From the NCBI GenBank assembly GCA_024644015.1, contig JAHELV010000006.1, positions 44,052-94,911 on the forward strand: a DNA stretch of 50,860 nt. Direction: 5' to 3'. Source of the DNA: Nitriliruptorales bacterium. GTDB lineage: Bacteria > Actinomycetota > Nitriliruptoria > Euzebyales > JAHELV01. Under the pieces are notes generated by a model, which made no database searches, was not told the origin of the DNA, and saw only the letters and a program-made list of their open reading frames with translations. This document shows, one piece after another, positions 18,650-26,100 of this stretch. Positions within the stretch are counted from its first letter, which is position 1, and each line of letters begins with the position of its first letter. The position numbers were made by a program, and so were the translations under genes.

Positions 18650-19915
18650 CTAGTCGGGACCCATGGCGGGCAGCGACTCGACGGTCAGCAACCGGCGGAT
18701 CGACTCGGCGAACACCGCGACGCCGACCGGTAGGCACGACTCGTCGATGTCGAAGTGCGAGCTGTGGTGCGCGGCGGTGATGCCGCGCGACGGGTTGGCC
18801 ACACCGAGGCGGAACATGCACACGGGGATGCCGGTGCTGCCGAACTCGAAGAAGTCCTCCGCGCCCATCGACGGGTGCTCTTCGATCGTCACACAATCGT
18901 CGGTGCAGATCGAGCGCGCGGCGCGCTCGACGAGCCGCGTCAGCGCCGTGTCGTTGTAGCCCGCGGGGTAGCCGTTCTCGACCGACACCGTGACCGACGT
19001 GCGGTTGGCCGACGCGATGGCGTGGGCCATCTGCTGGATCCGCTCGATCAGGTACTCCCGGGTGTCGGGGTACAGCGAGCGCATCGTCGCCTCCAGCGTG
19101 ACGCTCGACGCGATGATGTTGTGCCGTGTGCCGCCGTGGATCGACCCGAAGGTGAGCACGGCCGGCTTCAGTGGATCGATCTCGCGTGTGATGATCTGCT
19201 GCGCGTTCGTGATGAAGTTCGCGGCGACGGGGATGGGGTCGATCGCACGATCGGGGTGTGCCGCGTGCCCGTCGATGCCGTGGATGGTGATGGTGATGTC
19301 GTCCACGGCCCCGGTCACCGGGCCGCTGCGGAGGCCGACCGTTCCCGCCGGGTGGTTGCTGGCGGTGTGCAGCGCCAGGATCGCGTCGGGCGTGGGGTCT
19401 TCGAGCACACCCGACGCCACCATCGGCTCGGCACCGCCACCGCCCTCTTCGGCGGGCTGGAAGTACAGCACGACGGTGCCGGGCAGCTCCGCTTGACCGA
19501 CCAGCAGCTCGGCGAGGCCGAGCGCGGCGGCGACGTGCGCGTCATGCCCACAGGCGTGCGAGACGCCTTCGTTCTCGGAGCGGTACCCGTCGCGACCGGG
19601 CGCCTCGGGTACCGGCAACGCGTCCATGTCGGCCCGGACGCCGATGCAGCGCTCGCCGCGACCCTCGATCACGGCGACCACGCCGGTACCGACGACACGA
19701 CGGTGCTCGACACCGAGGTTGGCCAGCACCGACTCGATGTAGGCCGCTGTGCGATGCTCGCACCAGGCGAGCTCGGGGTGCCGGTGGATCCGCCTCCGGT
19801 GCTTGACGAGCGTCTCTCGAAGGGCTACCGCATGGTCGTGGATCATCATCGGCGTCCACGTCGACGTCGATGGCAGCAGCGTTCTGAGTCCACTCGGAGA
19901 GGCAGGTTTGACCAT
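18650..19915 (-). CDS. M20D family amidohydrolase/peptidase
   Basis: Metal-dependent amidohydrolase of the hippurate hydrolase/IAA-amino acid hydrolase/aminoacylase group. Signatures: HRHPELAW near the N-terminus, VRADMDALPV, the metal ligands in HACGHDAH, PAEEGGGG, and the dimerisation-domain motif GIDGHAAHPDRAIDP. A final metal ligand is in the HHSSHFD region. With the ATG at 19915 it is 421 residues; TAGCGT eight bases upstream suggests a leaderless start there. Internal ATGs at 19849 and 19846 would give about 399 residues, also normal. It lies alone, with a palindrome about 100 bp upstream. The substrate is unknown. Confidence 0.92.
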   Translation of the reverse strand: MVKPASPSGLRTLLPSTSTWTPMMIHDHAVALRETLVKHRRRIHRHPELAWCEHRTAAYIESVLANLGVEHRRVVGTGVVAVIEGRGERCIGVRADMDALPVPEAPGRDGYRSENEGVSHACGHDAHVAAALGLAELLVGQAELPGTVVLYFQPAEEGGGGAEPMVASGVLEDPTPDAILALHTASNHPAGTVGLRSGPVTGAVDDITITIHGIDGHAAHPDRAIDPIPVAANFITNAQQIITREIDPLKPAVLTFGSIHGGTRHNIIASSVTLEATMRSLYPDTREYLIERIQQMAHAIASANRTSVTVSVENGYPAGYNDTALTRLVERAARSICTDDCVTIEEHPSMGAEDFFEFGSTGIPVCMFRLGVANPSRGITAAHHSSHFDIDESCLPVGVAVFAESIRRLLTVESLPAMGPD

Positions 19916-20014
19916 AGGCCGCAACGCTATCCCGTTGTCATCCGCACCGCGAACCGCACGCCTGCCGGTCACAGCGCCAGGTTCGTGTCTGATACTCAAT
20001 CACACGGTATCACG

Positions 20015-20151: not shown

Positions 20152-20538
20152 TCAGCGGCTGACACGTCGCCGGGTGGACCCGACCGCCGGTCGTCTGTCC
20201 GCGCCCCTGCGCCGGACCTGAAGCAGGATCAGCATGTTCAGTGAGTGCATCGCGCCCAGGCTGAGCAGCAGCACGCCGAACTGCTGGACCGACGAGCGCA
20301 GCGCCATCGTGGGCGTCGCATCGGCGTCGATGCGCAGCAGTAGCAGTGCGTAGCCCAGGGTGAATACCACGAAGCCGGTGACCAGCAGACGACTGATCGC
20401 GGCGGCCAGGTCGGACTGGTCTCTGAACACGTCGTCGAGGAAGATGCGGCCGTCACGGTACAACAACACGCCGAGCCACGAGATCAACGCGATTGCCAGC
20501 GCGACGTAGACCACGTAGACGACGACCGCGCCGGTCAT
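20152..20538 (-). CDS. small three-helix membrane protein, paralogue of the upstream gene
   Basis: 128 residues with three hydrophobic segments: about 3-27 (AVVVYVVYVALAIALISWLGVLLY), 48-69 (ISRLLVTGFVVFTLGYALLLLR) and 84-108. It is clearly related to the gene just upstream, sharing SRLLV.GF..FTLGYA.LLL and GVLLLSLG.MH.LN. The ATG overlaps the stop of that paralogue (ATGA). A basic tail (RRRGADRRPAVG) should be cytoplasmic. I do not know the family; a role as a paired membrane complex is inferred from duplication and coupling. Confidence 0.82.
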   Translation of the reverse strand: MTGAVVVYVVYVALAIALISWLGVLLYRDGRIFLDDVFRDQSDLAAAISRLLVTGFVVFTLGYALLLLRIDADATPTMALRSSVQQFGVLLLSLGAMHSLNMLILLQVRRRGADRRPAVGSTRRRVSR

Positions 20539-20984
20539 CGCTCGCCACGTCGCTGGCGCGCCTGCTCGCTGGGTGGCCCGTCGCTCGGCGCGGGTGCCGG
20601 CCGTTTGGTGCGCCTGCCCGAGCGCTCGGCCTCGTTCTCCTCGTCGGCTCGCGCCCGCCGGAAACGAAGGAAGATCAGCGTGTTGAGCAGGTGGATCAGC
20701 CCCAGGCTGACCAGCAGTATCCCCAGGCGGCGGATCAGGAACTGCAGGGCCACGACGCCGCTCATCTCCTCGCTGATGTTCAGCAGCAGGAACGCGTAGC
20801 CCAGCGTGAACAGGGCGAAGCCGATCACCAGCAGCCGGCTCGTGGCCTGGGCCAGCAGTGGCTGCTGATCGTCGCGCTCGCGCAGCAGCTCCAGCCCGTT
20901 GCGGTACAGCGTGCTGGCGAGCCAGATGGTCAGGCTGACGGCGACCACGATGTAGAGCACCGAGACCACCAGGGCGTTGCCCAT
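20535..20984 (-). CDS. small three-helix membrane protein with charged tail
   Basis: 149 residues from an ATG with GGGGAGG eight bases upstream. Membrane segments lie at about 3-25 (ALVVSVLYIVVAVSLTIWLASTLY), 46-68 (SRLLVIGFALFTLGYAFLLLN) and 82-104. The final 40 residues are charged, Pro-rich and likely disordered. It is the longer member of a tandem paralogous pair with the next gene, aligning over all three helices. An earlier in-frame start at 21074 would add unlikely Arg-rich sequence and skip the strong ribosome binding site. Function unknown. Confidence 0.82.
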   Translation of the reverse strand: MGNALVVSVLYIVVAVSLTIWLASTLYRNGLELLRERDDQQPLLAQATSRLLVIGFALFTLGYAFLLLNISEEMSGVVALQFLIRRLGILLVSLGLIHLLNTLIFLRFRRARADEENEAERSGRRTKRPAPAPSDGPPSEQARQRRGER

Positions 20985-21216: not shown

Positions 21217-22254
21217 CTAGGCGAGCTTGGCTCGTTCCTGGAACAGCGCCAGCCGCTTGTGCAGCAGCGCCCGAAACTCCGGCCAGCTGCGCTGGTCGAG
21301 CAGGTCCATCGCCGGTACTCCGGCCAGCTTCCCGACGAGGTCGACTCCGGCCGAGGTCGCGGTTGCCAACCCGGCGACGAGGTCGGGACGAAAGCCGAAG
21401 CCCTCGATCACCCCCACCACGGCGTAGGGATCGGAGGCACAGAGCAAGGTGAAGCAGAGATTCGACTCCAGGGCATCCATCGCCACCTGACCGTTGTAGG
21501 GCTCGAAGGGCGAGGCCCCGGCCTCGATCACGGCGACGTCGGGACGCTCCCGCTGAATCATCGACAACAAGGTGGCCACCGCGGCCCGGAATTCGTCCGC
21601 TGGACCGATGGACGACGTGAGGCCGGCGTCCACGAAGTCGAAGATGTGGTCGGCGCCGGCATCACGCATGGCCAGCACGTCGCGAAAACGCGCCGCTCCG
21701 GTCAGCTTGGCCCCAACCACCGAAAGGCCGGCCTCCTTCAGCAGCCGCACGATCAACCTCGCAGACGTCGTCTTCCCCGACGACATGGAGGTGCCGATGA
21801 TGAGGATCGTCGGCGTCGCGTACGGCACAGGTTCGACGATCCGAGCGAAGTCCTGGAGGCGCAGAGTTCGGTCACGTCGAGTCACGTGGCCGAGGTACCG
21901 CAGTGCGAGCGGCGTCGACATGAAGTACGACCTCGAGGTGACCTTGCCGATGAGACCGGCAGCGGTCATCGCGTGCATCCGCAGATCCGGCCCGATCTCC
22001 TCCCAGCTCCCCACCGCTTCGAGCGTGGCTCGCCGCTCCCCGAAGGCACCCACCACCAGGTCGCCACCGCAGATGCTGGCCATCCTGCCGTTGGTGAGCT
22101 CCACCATGGCCAGCGGCGTGTGGGCAGACCGCACCTCGCCCACCACGAGATCTCCGACACCCCACAACGCACGATCCTGCGGCATCACCTCGAACGAGTC
22201 GTGCTCGAGATCCGTGATGCGGGTGAGCGACCCGAAGAAGTACTTCTGCGTCAC
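21217..22254 (-). CDS. P-loop NTPase of unknown function
   Basis: 345 residues from a GTG preceded by AGGAGG and overlapping the M20 stop (GTGA). Residues 1-145 are a separate domain rich in beta-strand patterns (GDLVVGEVRSAHTP, ICGGDLVVGAFG). Residues 150-300 are a P-loop domain with GTSMSSGKTT (155-164), followed by LTGAARFRDVLAMRDAGAD and PDVAVIEAGASP. The layout recalls BioD/MobB/DUF1611-type NTPases. DUF1611 includes DgcN, reported as a D-glutamate N-acetyltransferase partner of an enolase-fold racemase. That link would suit the neighbouring racemase and deacylase, but the similarity here is weak and I cannot assign it. Confidence 0.78.
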   Translation of the reverse strand: MTQKYFFGSLTRITDLEHDSFEVMPQDRALWGVGDLVVGEVRSAHTPLAMVELTNGRMASICGGDLVVGAFGERRATLEAVGSWEEIGPDLRMHAMTAAGLIGKVTSRSYFMSTPLALRYLGHVTRRDRTLRLQDFARIVEPVPYATPTILIIGTSMSSGKTTSARLIVRLLKEAGLSVVGAKLTGAARFRDVLAMRDAGADHIFDFVDAGLTSSIGPADEFRAAVATLLSMIQRERPDVAVIEAGASPFEPYNGQVAMDALESNLCFTLLCASDPYAVVGVIEGFGFRPDLVAGLATATSAGVDLVGKLAGVPAMDLLDQRSWPEFRALLHKRLALFQERAKLA

Positions 22255-23414
22255 GTCCCTCCTCCTAGCGGCTGCTCCAACAGAAGCCCGGCGAGCAGTG
22301 CGGCTCGCTCCGGCATCCGGTCGATGTCCACATACTCGTGGTTGGCGTGGGCGCCGTCGCCAACCGCGCCCAACCCGTCGAGCGTCGGGATCAGTTGCGA
22401 GGTCTCGTTGCCGTCCGATGCGCCTCCGGCGCGGCCCGACGCAATGGTGATCTCCAGCTCGGCAGCAACCGCTTCGGCGATCTTCCACAGCCTCGAGGTG
22501 CCGTCCGTCTCCTCCATCGGCGGCCGGCCGAAGCCTCCCTCCACGGAGAGCACGGTCCCCGGAGTCGCCGCCTCGAGCGCACGGATCGCCGAGTCGACGT
22601 GCTCTGCGTCTTCGTGGGTCCACACCCGGACGTCGACCACCGCCGAGCTCTCCGGAGCGACCACGTTGGGACGGATACCGCCTTCGATCGTCCCGACATT
22701 GACTGAGAGTCCTCGCTCGAAGTCGTTGAGCGCAAACATCTCTTGGACGAGACGCGACAGCTCGACGATGGCGCTGGCTCCTTTGCCCGGGTCGAGCCCG
22801 GCGTGGGCGGCGACCCCGGTGACCCGCAACTTGTAGCTCGCCACTCCTTTGCGGGCCGTCTTGAGCGCACCGTTCGGACCCAGTGAGGGTTCCAGGATGA
22901 GTGCCCGGTCTGAGATGGCGGCGAGCCTGGCGATGTGAGGGCCGGAGTCGCTGCTGCCGATCTCCTCGTCGGAGTTGATCAGCAGTACGGGAGCCACTGC
23001 GGGTCGCAGGCCCAGCTCACCGAGAACGCGCAGCGCACCGATACCTTGGGCGAGGCCGGCCTTCATGTCGTAGGAACCGGCGCCCTTCAGCTTGCTGCCG
23101 GAGATCGCGGGCGGCCGTTCGGCGGTGGTCCCCTTCGGCCAGACCGTGTCGCAGTGACCGACGAGCAGCTGGATCGGGCTGCCCTTCTCCCGCCAGCGCG
23201 GGACCGCCAGCAGCGAGCCTCCACTTGTCCGGCCCGGGAGCCGCCGCACCCGGTAGTCGATCGCGGCCAACTCGCGCTCGAGGATCGTCTGCACGGCGGC
23301 CTGCGATTCGGGATCCGACGAGGGCGACTCGGACTCGACCAGCTCGAGGGTGAGTTCGGCCATGGCGTCGCGGTCTTCCCGCAAGGCGGCCGCAGCAGCC
23401 GTGATCGGGTTCAT
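22251..23414 (-). CDS. M20 family metallo-deacylase (carboxypeptidase G2/ArgE-like)
   Basis: 387 residues; two-zinc exopeptidase/deacylase. Metal and catalytic positions: His87 and Asp89 in VGHCDT, Asp116 in GSYDMK, catalytic Glu150 and metal Glu151 in NSDEEIG, and a C-terminal His in HANHEYVD. The dimerisation domain has VAAHAGLDPGKGASA. Its start overlaps the flavin-reductase stop and its stop overlaps the P-loop start, so the three are translationally coupled. In Geobacillus an M20 enzyme removes succinate from N-succinyl-L-amino acids beside an NSAR racemase. The same role is inferred here. Glutamate carboxypeptidase activity is the main alternative. Confidence 0.9.
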   Translation of the reverse strand: MNPITAAAAALREDRDAMAELTLELVESESPSSDPESQAAVQTILERELAAIDYRVRRLPGRTSGGSLLAVPRWREKGSPIQLLVGHCDTVWPKGTTAERPPAISGSKLKGAGSYDMKAGLAQGIGALRVLGELGLRPAVAPVLLINSDEEIGSSDSGPHIARLAAISDRALILEPSLGPNGALKTARKGVASYKLRVTGVAAHAGLDPGKGASAIVELSRLVQEMFALNDFERGLSVNVGTIEGGIRPNVVAPESSAVVDVRVWTHEDAEHVDSAIRALEAATPGTVLSVEGGFGRPPMEETDGTSRLWKIAEAVAAELEITIASGRAGGASDGNETSQLIPTLDGLGAVGDGAHANHEYVDIDRMPERAALLAGLLLEQPLGGGT

Positions 23415-24031
23415 CGTTCGAAGCCGGCGTGGAACGGGAAGGTGGCGCTGCGCTCGATGATGCCGTATCGCCCGGGCGGCAGGTAGGCCAACAACGGTGC
23501 GCCGGCGACCAACTCCTGGTCGTCCTGTTCGAGATCCCGCAACGCGTCTGGGTGCACTCTGGCGGCCACCACGGTCCCGACCACGAGGCCGTTCTCGCCG
23601 AAGCCTTCCACCACCCGGTCGAGGCGGCACTCCAGGTGTACGTAGGCGTCCGAGAGCAGCACCCCTTTCACGTCGGTTGCCGGCTCGGTGGGCAGGGCGC
23701 GCAACGACGGCTTCTGCGACTCGTCGCGAGGAGTCGCCGCCATCGAGGTGAACACCACCTGCTCGGGACGTGGGTAGCTGACGGTGAACTCTTCGGTCCG
23801 GAGCGCGTTGCGATAGGTGGCGTGGCGGGGGGTGCACACGAACCCGAAGTAGCCGTCCCACCCCATCGGCATGGCCAAGTGTTTCGGTGCCAGGTCGCTG
23901 GCGCCGTCGGGCTCGGTCGTTCCAATGATGACCAACGGGGCCACCAAGAAGAAGCGGTCCCAAACAGGCCCGGCATCCAGGTCGAGGTCGTGCATGCCCA
24001 ACGTCACCTCTTCACGTGATGGTGCCATCAT
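23411..24031 (-). CDS. flavin reductase-like (FMN-binding split barrel) protein
   Basis: 206 residues with the flavin-reductase-like split-barrel pattern: LVIIGTTEPDGASDLAPKH early, YFGFVCTPRHATYRNA, FTVSYPRPEQV, and a late HLECRLDRVVEGFGENGLVVG. Such proteins bind FMN and either reduce flavin with NAD(P)H or serve as flavoredoxins. First gene of the coupled three-gene set; ATG codons at 24031 and 24028 are both possible and neither has a good ribosome binding site. It is 150 bp downstream of the racemase stop. Its contribution to amino acid metabolism is unclear. Confidence 0.83.
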   Translation of the reverse strand: MMAPSREEVTLGMHDLDLDAGPVWDRFFLVAPLVIIGTTEPDGASDLAPKHLAMPMGWDGYFGFVCTPRHATYRNALRTEEFTVSYPRPEQVVFTSMAATPRDESQKPSLRALPTEPATDVKGVLLSDAYVHLECRLDRVVEGFGENGLVVGTVVAARVHPDALRDLEQDDQELVAGAPLLAYLPPGRYGIIERSATFPFHAGFER

Positions 24032-24181
24032 GGCGGCAGGCGTGCATCCGTCGAAGGGGCGATGGTCACCTCATCGAGGGCCGAATGGGTGGGACCGTTG
24101 CGGACCACTGCTCTGCGGCTTCAGTTTCGGGGCGCAATGCGGCGTCGGTCGGGCCAAGCCATCGCAGCGGTCCCGACGTCG

Positions 24182-25297
24182 TCACCGTCCGGCGCCGAAC
24201 GATTCGCTGTGCACGAGCGCCGACCGCAGCAGGGAGTGGTCGATCATCGCGCCGACGCCGGCGACGGTGGGGACCGCCACGGTGCCGGCAGGCGAGAGCG
24301 TCACAGCGGGGTCGATGATGTCGCTGTCCCAGTAGCGGTCGCTGGCCGAGGTGTCGCCGGGCAGGGTGAAGCCGGGCAGGCTGGCGAGCGCGATGTTGTG
24401 CAGACGGCCGACTCCCGACTCGAGCATGCCGCCGACCCACAGAGGGACGCCGACGCCGACGGCCCAGTCATGCAGCGCCAGCGACTCGGCGAGGCCACCG
24501 AGGCGCCCCGGCTTGCAGTTGATGATCGCGCATGCGCCGACCTGGAGTGCGCGGCGCGCGTCCGCGGCTGAGCGGATCGACTCGTCGAGGCAGAGCGGCG
24601 TTCGCAGCTGCGGTGACAGCGTTGCATGATCGATGATGTCGTCGTGCGCCAGGGGTTGTTCGATCATGGTCAGATCGAACGCGTCCAGCTTCGCCAGATG
24701 TCCGGCGTCGCCGAGCGTGTAGGCGGAGTTCGCGTCGGCCATCAGCGCGATGTCGGGGTACCGTCCGCGCACGGCCGCCACAAGCCCGACGTCCGAGCCG
24801 GGTGCGATCTTGACCTTGATCCGTGCATAGCCCTGTCCGACGAAGCCGTCGACCCGGTCGAGCAGGGCGGCCGTGCCGTCCTGGAGCCCGATGCTCACGC
24901 CCGCCGGCACAGCGGTCCGCGTGCCGCCGAGCAGCGCGGCCAGCGGCTTGTCGACGGCGGCCGACCATGCGTCCCAGACCGCCATCTCGACCGCGGCCTT
25001 CGCCATCGGGTTGCCGCGGATCCAGCGCCACCACGTGTGCACCTGCCTGGGGTCGTCGATCGGGCGCCCGATCACCGAGCCCACCAGGTGATCGCGCATG
25101 ATCGTGACTGCGGTGGCAACGGTCTCCTCGCTGTAGATCGGGTCGCGGCCGGCCACCAGCTCGCCCCAGCCGTCGACGCCCTCCGCCCGCACGCGGACCA
25201 GCACGACGTCGCGCTCGTGCTGGGGGCCGAAGCTCGTCACGAACTGCTCCCGTAGCCGCATCGTGAGATGCAGCAGTTCGATGCGTTCGATCCGCAT
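24182..25297 (-). CDS. N-acylamino acid racemase / o-succinylbenzoate synthase family (NSAR-type)
   Basis: Enolase-superfamily enzyme of the NSAR/OSBS group; 371 residues, the normal size. The full active site is present: Lys161 and Lys163 (KVK), metal ligands Asp188 (DAN), Glu213 (IEQPL) and Asp238 (LDES), and Lys262 (CKPG). These fall within one residue of the positions known in the Amycolatopsis racemase. No other menaquinone gene is near. A GNAT gene directly upstream and an M20 gene downstream favour racemisation of N-succinylamino acids over OSBS. A GTG at 25306 overlapping the GNAT stop is an alternative start. A 6-bp inverted repeat at 24148-24177 follows the stop. Confidence 0.92.
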   Translation of the reverse strand: MRIERIELLHLTMRLREQFVTSFGPQHERDVVLVRVRAEGVDGWGELVAGRDPIYSEETVATAVTIMRDHLVGSVIGRPIDDPRQVHTWWRWIRGNPMAKAAVEMAVWDAWSAAVDKPLAALLGGTRTAVPAGVSIGLQDGTAALLDRVDGFVGQGYARIKVKIAPGSDVGLVAAVRGRYPDIALMADANSAYTLGDAGHLAKLDAFDLTMIEQPLAHDDIIDHATLSPQLRTPLCLDESIRSAADARRALQVGACAIINCKPGRLGGLAESLALHDWAVGVGVPLWVGGMLESGVGRLHNIALASLPGFTLPGDTSASDRYWDSDIIDPAVTLSPAGTVAVPTVAGVGAMIDHSLLRSALVHSESFGAGR

Positions 25298-25302
25298 GTT
25301 GG

Positions 25303-26100
25303 TCACGGTACGCGCTCGAGCACGTAGGCGCTGTAGCCGTCGCCGGCGCCGCGCGCAAGGTCGACCGCCGTCAGTCCCGACGCGAACGCCGAGGACAGCG
25401 CCGTTCGCACCGCCGCCCTCCATGTGGTCGGACCGTTCGGGTCGGCCTGCCGCAGCCGATCGATGCTGTCGGGCACCGCGACCAGCACGGTGTCCGCCGC
25501 GACCGCCGTGTGGTCGGGCTCAGTGGGCTGCGGTGACCCTCCGATGGTGACCGCGCCCAACAGCCACGAGCCCTCCGGTATGGTCACGCGCCTGCCGACG
25601 CGCGGACCGCTGACCGGCCACTCGGCCAGCAGGCGGTCGGTTGGCAGCCCGCGGTTGATCGCGTCGTCCATGTCGCCGTAGTGGTCGACGTAGTACCGAC
25701 GCGCGTACGCCCCGAGCCGGTGCAGGTTGAGGTACGCATTGCGCGCCTGCAGCGGATCGAAGGTCCAGGTGATCTTCGCGAACCCCCGGGCCGCTGCGTG
25801 CCGGCGTTGCGCGAGCTTGAGCTCGCGGCCGACCCCCCGGCCCTGGACGTGCGGACGGACCGCGAGCATGTGTGAGCACAGGATCGGCTCGCCGTCCTCC
25901 AGGCCGACGAACCCGTAGCAGAACCCGACGGGCGAGCCGCCGTCCGTCGCCACCAGCAGCAGCCCGCCGTTGTGGACGATCGCGCGGATCTGCTCGGCGG
26001 GGACGACCGCGCGGTCGGTCATGCCCCACACCTCGAGCTGGATGTCCTCGACCAGGCGGCACGATGCCGGGTCTGCTGCGACTGCGATGTGGACGGCCAT
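25303..26100 (-). CDS. GNAT family N-acyltransferase
   Basis: 265 residues. The acetyl-CoA (acyl-CoA) binding motif A is clear: MLAVRPHVQGRGVG with the pyrophosphate loop at 86-91 (QGRGVG). LLLVATDGGSPVGFCYGFVG precedes it, and WTFDPLQARNAYLNLHRLGA follows. The long C-terminal extension (170-265) is typical of a subgroup found beside NSAR-type racemases. Such an enzyme in Geobacillus is a succinyl-CoA:D-amino acid N-succinyltransferase. It abuts the racemase gene (stop overlapping its alternative GTG). The ATG at 26100 starts at the domain edge. The acyl donor and acceptor are inferred from context. Confidence 0.87.
   Translation of the reverse strand: MAVHIAVAADPASCRLVEDIQLEVWGMTDRAVVPAEQIRAIVHNGGLLLVATDGGSPVGFCYGFVGLEDGEPILCSHMLAVRPHVQGRGVGRELKLAQRRHAAARGFAKITWTFDPLQARNAYLNLHRLGAYARRYYVDHYGDMDDAINRGLPTDRLLAEWPVSGPRVGRRVTIPEGSWLLGAVTIGGSPQPTEPDHTAVAADTVLVAVPDSIDRLRQADPNGPTTWRAAVRTALSSAFASGLTAVDLARGAGDGYSAYVLERVP

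Follow-up and report, generated by a model that had tools for sequence, protein, structure and literature searches.

A GNAT-racemase gene pair likely to serve D- to L-amino acid conversion, and a three-gene cassette in place of its native M20 hydrolase gene

The window analysed here, a stretch of 50,860 nucleotides from a draft genome of 161 contigs, carries on its minus strand a gene for a GNAT-family N-acyltransferase followed by one for an NSAR/OSBS-subfamily racemase. On balance we favour the view that the products of these two genes carry out steps one and two of a route for salvaging D-amino acids as their L-forms, and that the native M20 hydrolase gene of the locus was swapped for an acquired cassette. 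The GNAT-racemase pair is best read as converting D- to L-amino acids by way of N-acyl intermediates, probably N-succinyl ones. Judging by family and by conserved linkage, the GNAT enzyme would N-acylate D-amino acids, probably to their N-succinyl derivatives, and the NSAR-type racemase would equilibrate the N-acyl-D and N-acyl-L forms; an L-specific M20 hydrolase would then strip off the acyl group and so make the flow one-way. The GNAT protein is a probable succinyl- or acetyl-CoA:D-amino acid N-acyltransferase; no feature of the sequence fixes the acyl group (succinyl versus acetyl) or the D-amino acid substrate.

Two gene groupings on the minus strand

The GNAT gene (positions 25303–26100; 265 amino acids; passes Pfam models PF00583 and PF13508) and the racemase gene (24182–25297; 371 amino acids; PF13378, PF02746 and TIGR01928) are almost contiguous. 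After a gap of about 187 bp come three genes in the same orientation: FLAV, which codes for a flavin-reductase-like protein (23411–23995; PF01613, 4e-16); M20A', which codes for a carboxypeptidase G2 (CPG2)-like M20 metallohydrolase (22251–23414; PF01546 and PF07687); and a gene for a P-loop protein distantly related to the DUF1611 family (21217–22254; PF07755 at 20.9–22 bits, below the gathering threshold of 25). FLAV overlaps the start of M20A' (ATGA) and the P-loop gene overlaps its stop (GTGA). Because of these overlaps and the gap before FLAV, we consider M20A' to be coupled to FLAV and the P-loop gene rather than to the racemase gene, and the span to contain two gene groupings instead of one three-gene operon. 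An earlier note on this DNA had described it as a GNAT, a racemase and an M20 gene lying in order on one strand: all three are indeed on the minus strand, but FLAV, which separates the racemase gene from M20A', and the P-loop gene had been overlooked. Farther along the same strand lie genes for two small membrane proteins, TM1 (20535–20984; no Pfam match; blastn identity of 78–83% over ~800 bp to congeners) and TM2 (20152–20541, start approximate), both neighbours kept in congeners, and then M20D, which codes for a second M20 hydrolase, of the amidohydrolase type (18650–19951; TIGR01891, 340 bits). Promoter and terminator scans of the stretch were uninformative in this GC-rich DNA.

The racemase and the menaquinone pathway

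In a profile search the racemase, a full-length protein of the enolase superfamily, passed TIGR01928 with 333 bits (cut-off 201). Among solved structures it is closest to the N-acylamino acid racemases of Thermus, Deinococcus and Amycolatopsis (E-values 1e-101 to 1e-92), with near full-length matches to 2zc8, 1r0m, 1sja and 7s8w at 314–343 bits. The Lys-Lys/Asp-Glu-Asp/Lys site claimed earlier is complete: lysines K161 and K163, the metal ligands D188, E213 and D238 and the second-half lysine K262 were all found. Three residues past K262 lies R265 (K-x-x-R), a second-shell position at which we take arginine to favour NSAR over OSBS activity; 80 of the 89 aligned rows share this arginine. In the alignments shown, the Thermus and Deinococcus racemases have the same active site and K-x-x-R motif. 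The host lineage differs from those of these solved relatives. The same genome contains a further gene of the enolase superfamily, with 33% identity to the racemase (G000, contig C29:353–1408).

It is very improbable that the racemase is MenC, the o-succinylbenzoate synthase of the menaquinone pathway. That reading draws on the name of the model passed, TIGR01928 (o-succinylbenzoate synthase), and on the promiscuity of the subfamily. NSAR/OSBS-family enzymes are promiscuous, so that the name does not decide function, and some residual OSBS activity of the racemase is possible for the same reason. The genome, however, has a separate menC, which scores 362 bits against NF002782 (curated cut-off 288) and lies beside menA and menD (the latter at 421 bits) on another contig, C54; the racemase is thus not needed for menaquinone. 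Nearly every relative examined also has its racemase linked to GNAT, and most of the related racemase-bearing genomes carry a menC of their own; one genome (G050, 98% complete) has the racemase without a strong match to menC or menD. Being neither the sole menC of its genome nor linked to men genes, the racemase was rejected as a candidate for the OSBS/MenC role. The earlier note had seen no menaquinone genes close enough to back the OSBS alternative, and had named a racemase with OSBS activity only, in a genome lacking any other menC, as a situation that would speak against its own proposal; the menC on C54 is such another gene.

Linkage of the GNAT and racemase genes

Of 30 loci fetched from the class Acidimicrobiia, 28 have a GNAT relative near the racemase gene and on the same strand, as do most loci from the set of named genomes. 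The same pair was also seen in Oceanobacillus, Sporosarcina, Neobacillus, Lysinibacillus, Acidobacteria and further groups. Given these counts, the association across Acidimicrobiia, Bacillales and other phyla is not due to chance. In the congeners of the window genome the GNAT protein is 60–71% identical.

Plasmids annotated in RefSeq show GNAT and/or M20 genes beside a gene named 'menC', in several cases with genes for amino acid transporters or MurR/RpiR regulators as well; such neighbours fit amino acid salvage, perhaps from peptidoglycan. Hosts of such 'menC' neighbourhoods are Streptomyces, Arthrobacter, Deinococcus, Sulfitobacter and Cytobacillus, and serine hydrolases are among the neighbours. 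RefSeq calls the racemase menC in loci L189, L190, L191, L192 and L193, where GNAT and/or M20 adjoins it; the name is probably misleading there.

The closest described parallel that we considered is the NSAR pathway of Geobacillus kaustophilus, for which PMC8762209 cites Sakai et al. 2006 (doi 10.1021/bi060230b). The window resembles it in having a GNAT and an NSAR-type racemase with identical catalytic residues and an M20-family hydrolase nearby, and departs from it in that the adjacent M20 is CPG2-like and sits in an unrelated cassette. In the loci fetched from Bacillales, the group of Geobacillus, the typical order is M20D-GNAT-racemase: the adjacent hydrolase is of the M20D type and upstream, not CPG2-like. 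The Geobacillus-like pathway of three families put forward in the earlier note is therefore supported for the GNAT-racemase pair, which is widely conserved, but not for its third member, since M20A' is borne by a cassette and the Bacillales partner is an M20D.

Displacement of the native M20 gene

Three congeneric genomes (G001–G003) share the gene order GNAT-racemase-M20-TM1-TM2-M20D. In two of them (G002 and G003) the start of this native M20 gene overlaps the stop of the racemase gene (ATGA). The window proteins are close to those of the congeners for the racemase (76–78% identity) and for M20D (86–91%); the native M20s of the three congeners, 72–77% identical among themselves, are only ~40% identical to M20A'. 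DNA similarity to the congeners extends from 26294 to ~24190, breaks off and resumes at ~21020, and between the last two points only short stretches within the M20 gene match congener DNA. As congener synteny is interrupted from 24190 to 21020, the FLAV-M20-P-loop cassette has taken the place of the native hydrolase gene. A second copy of the native M20 was sought in the window's own genome and none was found. In the M20 tree M20A' groups with the M20s of cassettes found in other genomes (support 100/100), and a grouping with the native M20s was rejected (AU test, P = 4.3e-5).

The sequence comparison thus shows that M20A' is a xenolog: a set of three genes gained by horizontal transfer displaced the native M20 at its own site. 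A chimeric assembly at this site is unlikely. M20A' is not the inherited third member of the operon; it belongs to the cassette that displaced that member. In the ancestor of the genus the deacylase was most likely encoded by the M20 gene directly after the racemase gene, as in the three sister genomes.

Candidates for the deacylase

The metal and catalytic residues expected of an M20 enzyme are kept in M20A' (H87, D89, D116, E150, E151, E175 and H356). Its nearest solved structure is carboxypeptidase G2 (1cg2, 6xj5; ~130 bits), from which it is nevertheless distant, and, in contrast to that enzyme, it is encoded in one operon with genes for a flavin-reductase-like and a P-loop protein. M20D lies ~4 kb downstream of the racemase gene, and the structures nearest to it belong to IAA-amino acid hydrolase, YxeP and acyl-glutamine aminoacylase; by family, it fits the known N-acyl-amino acid hydrolases better than M20A' does. 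The deacylase of the pathway would be either M20A', which occupies the slot of a native enzyme of the same subfamily, or M20D. We give about even chances to M20A' having taken over the deacylase step, in which case FLAV and the P-loop protein would be passengers or modifiers.

A competing account, which we find credible while leaning somewhat against it, holds that the cassette plays no part in converting D-amino acids. Its P-loop protein and FLAV would produce or alter an N-acyl or amide compound, which the CPG2-like M20 would cleave, and the deacylase of the GNAT-racemase pathway would be M20D (18650–19951). In favour of this account, the cassette stands by itself in eight further genomes, whose fetched flanks gave no match to racemase or GNAT, and M20D, encoded beside the GNAT-racemase operon, is strongly conserved in the genus. 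The account gains also from the Bacillales, where hydrolases of the M20D type directly adjoin GNAT-racemase, and from the N-acyl-amino acid hydrolases among the solved relatives of M20D. Against it, the racemase gene of the congeners is directly followed by a CPG2-like M20 gene and not by M20D, with an overlap in two of them; clusters of CPG2-like M20, GNAT and racemase recur in other Acidimicrobiia and in Streptomyces; and the cassette landed exactly in the slot of the native M20.

The cassette and its P-loop protein

Related cassettes are present in eight other actinobacterial genomes (L172–L179), with FLAV 54–62% and the P-loop protein 48–55% identical. Seven of the eight keep all three genes, including L179, in which the P-loop reading frame is split in two; L176 shows the M20 and P-loop genes only, and its P-loop gene was read with an in-frame TGA. 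The split and the TGA-bearing P-loop genes could reflect decay or assembly error. As the cassette M20 is normally without GNAT or racemase neighbours, M20A' may have an unrelated substrate. We think it unlikely that FLAV-M20-P-loop is a mobile metabolic cassette not described before, in which the P-loop protein acylates and the M20 deacylates, and that its insertion here joined it to GNAT-racemase, giving a D-amino acid pathway of five genes, two of them for acyltransferases.

The likeness of the P-loop protein to the DUF1611/DgcN family lies in its P-loop segment; 9 of 11 of its homologues match PF07755, whereas the match of the window protein is weak, confined to the P-loop and below the cut-off. 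No NCBIfam model was matched, its alignment profile gave only weak generic P-loop matches when compared with solved structures, and a single-sequence structure prediction was unusable (mean pLDDT 36). Relatives encoded on plasmids are too distant for assigning a function. One distant relative (L186, Priestia megaterium plasmid NZ_CP085446.1) occurs among ATP-grasp, TPP-dependent, M20, LLM-oxidoreductase and PEP-mutase-family genes, a set that looks like a phosphonate biosynthesis cluster.

DgcN is presumably a member of the DUF1611 family, and with a racemase of the enolase superfamily close by, a D-glutamate pathway of the DgcN-DgcA type could be imagined, with the P-loop protein as N-acetyltransferase. 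This is very improbable: the racemase reaches 97 bits against a DgcA cut-off of 400, the P-loop protein lacks an NCBIfam match, and the P-loop cassette occurs elsewhere without any racemase match. On the cut-offs for DgcA (97 versus 400 bits) and PF07755 (20.9–22 versus 25 bits), membership of the DgcN-DgcA system was rejected.

Discussion

The present comparison gives genomic support for extending to Acidimicrobiia the pathway known from Geobacillus. It also shows that the M20 subfamily occupying the hydrolase slot of this pathway varies, and that gene transfer can exchange the occupant. The locus calls for caution as well: finding members of the expected families side by side does not make them an inherited operon. 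Finally, the FLAV-M20-P-loop cassette emerges as a conserved and well-bounded, though uncharacterised, unit that is open to biochemical testing.
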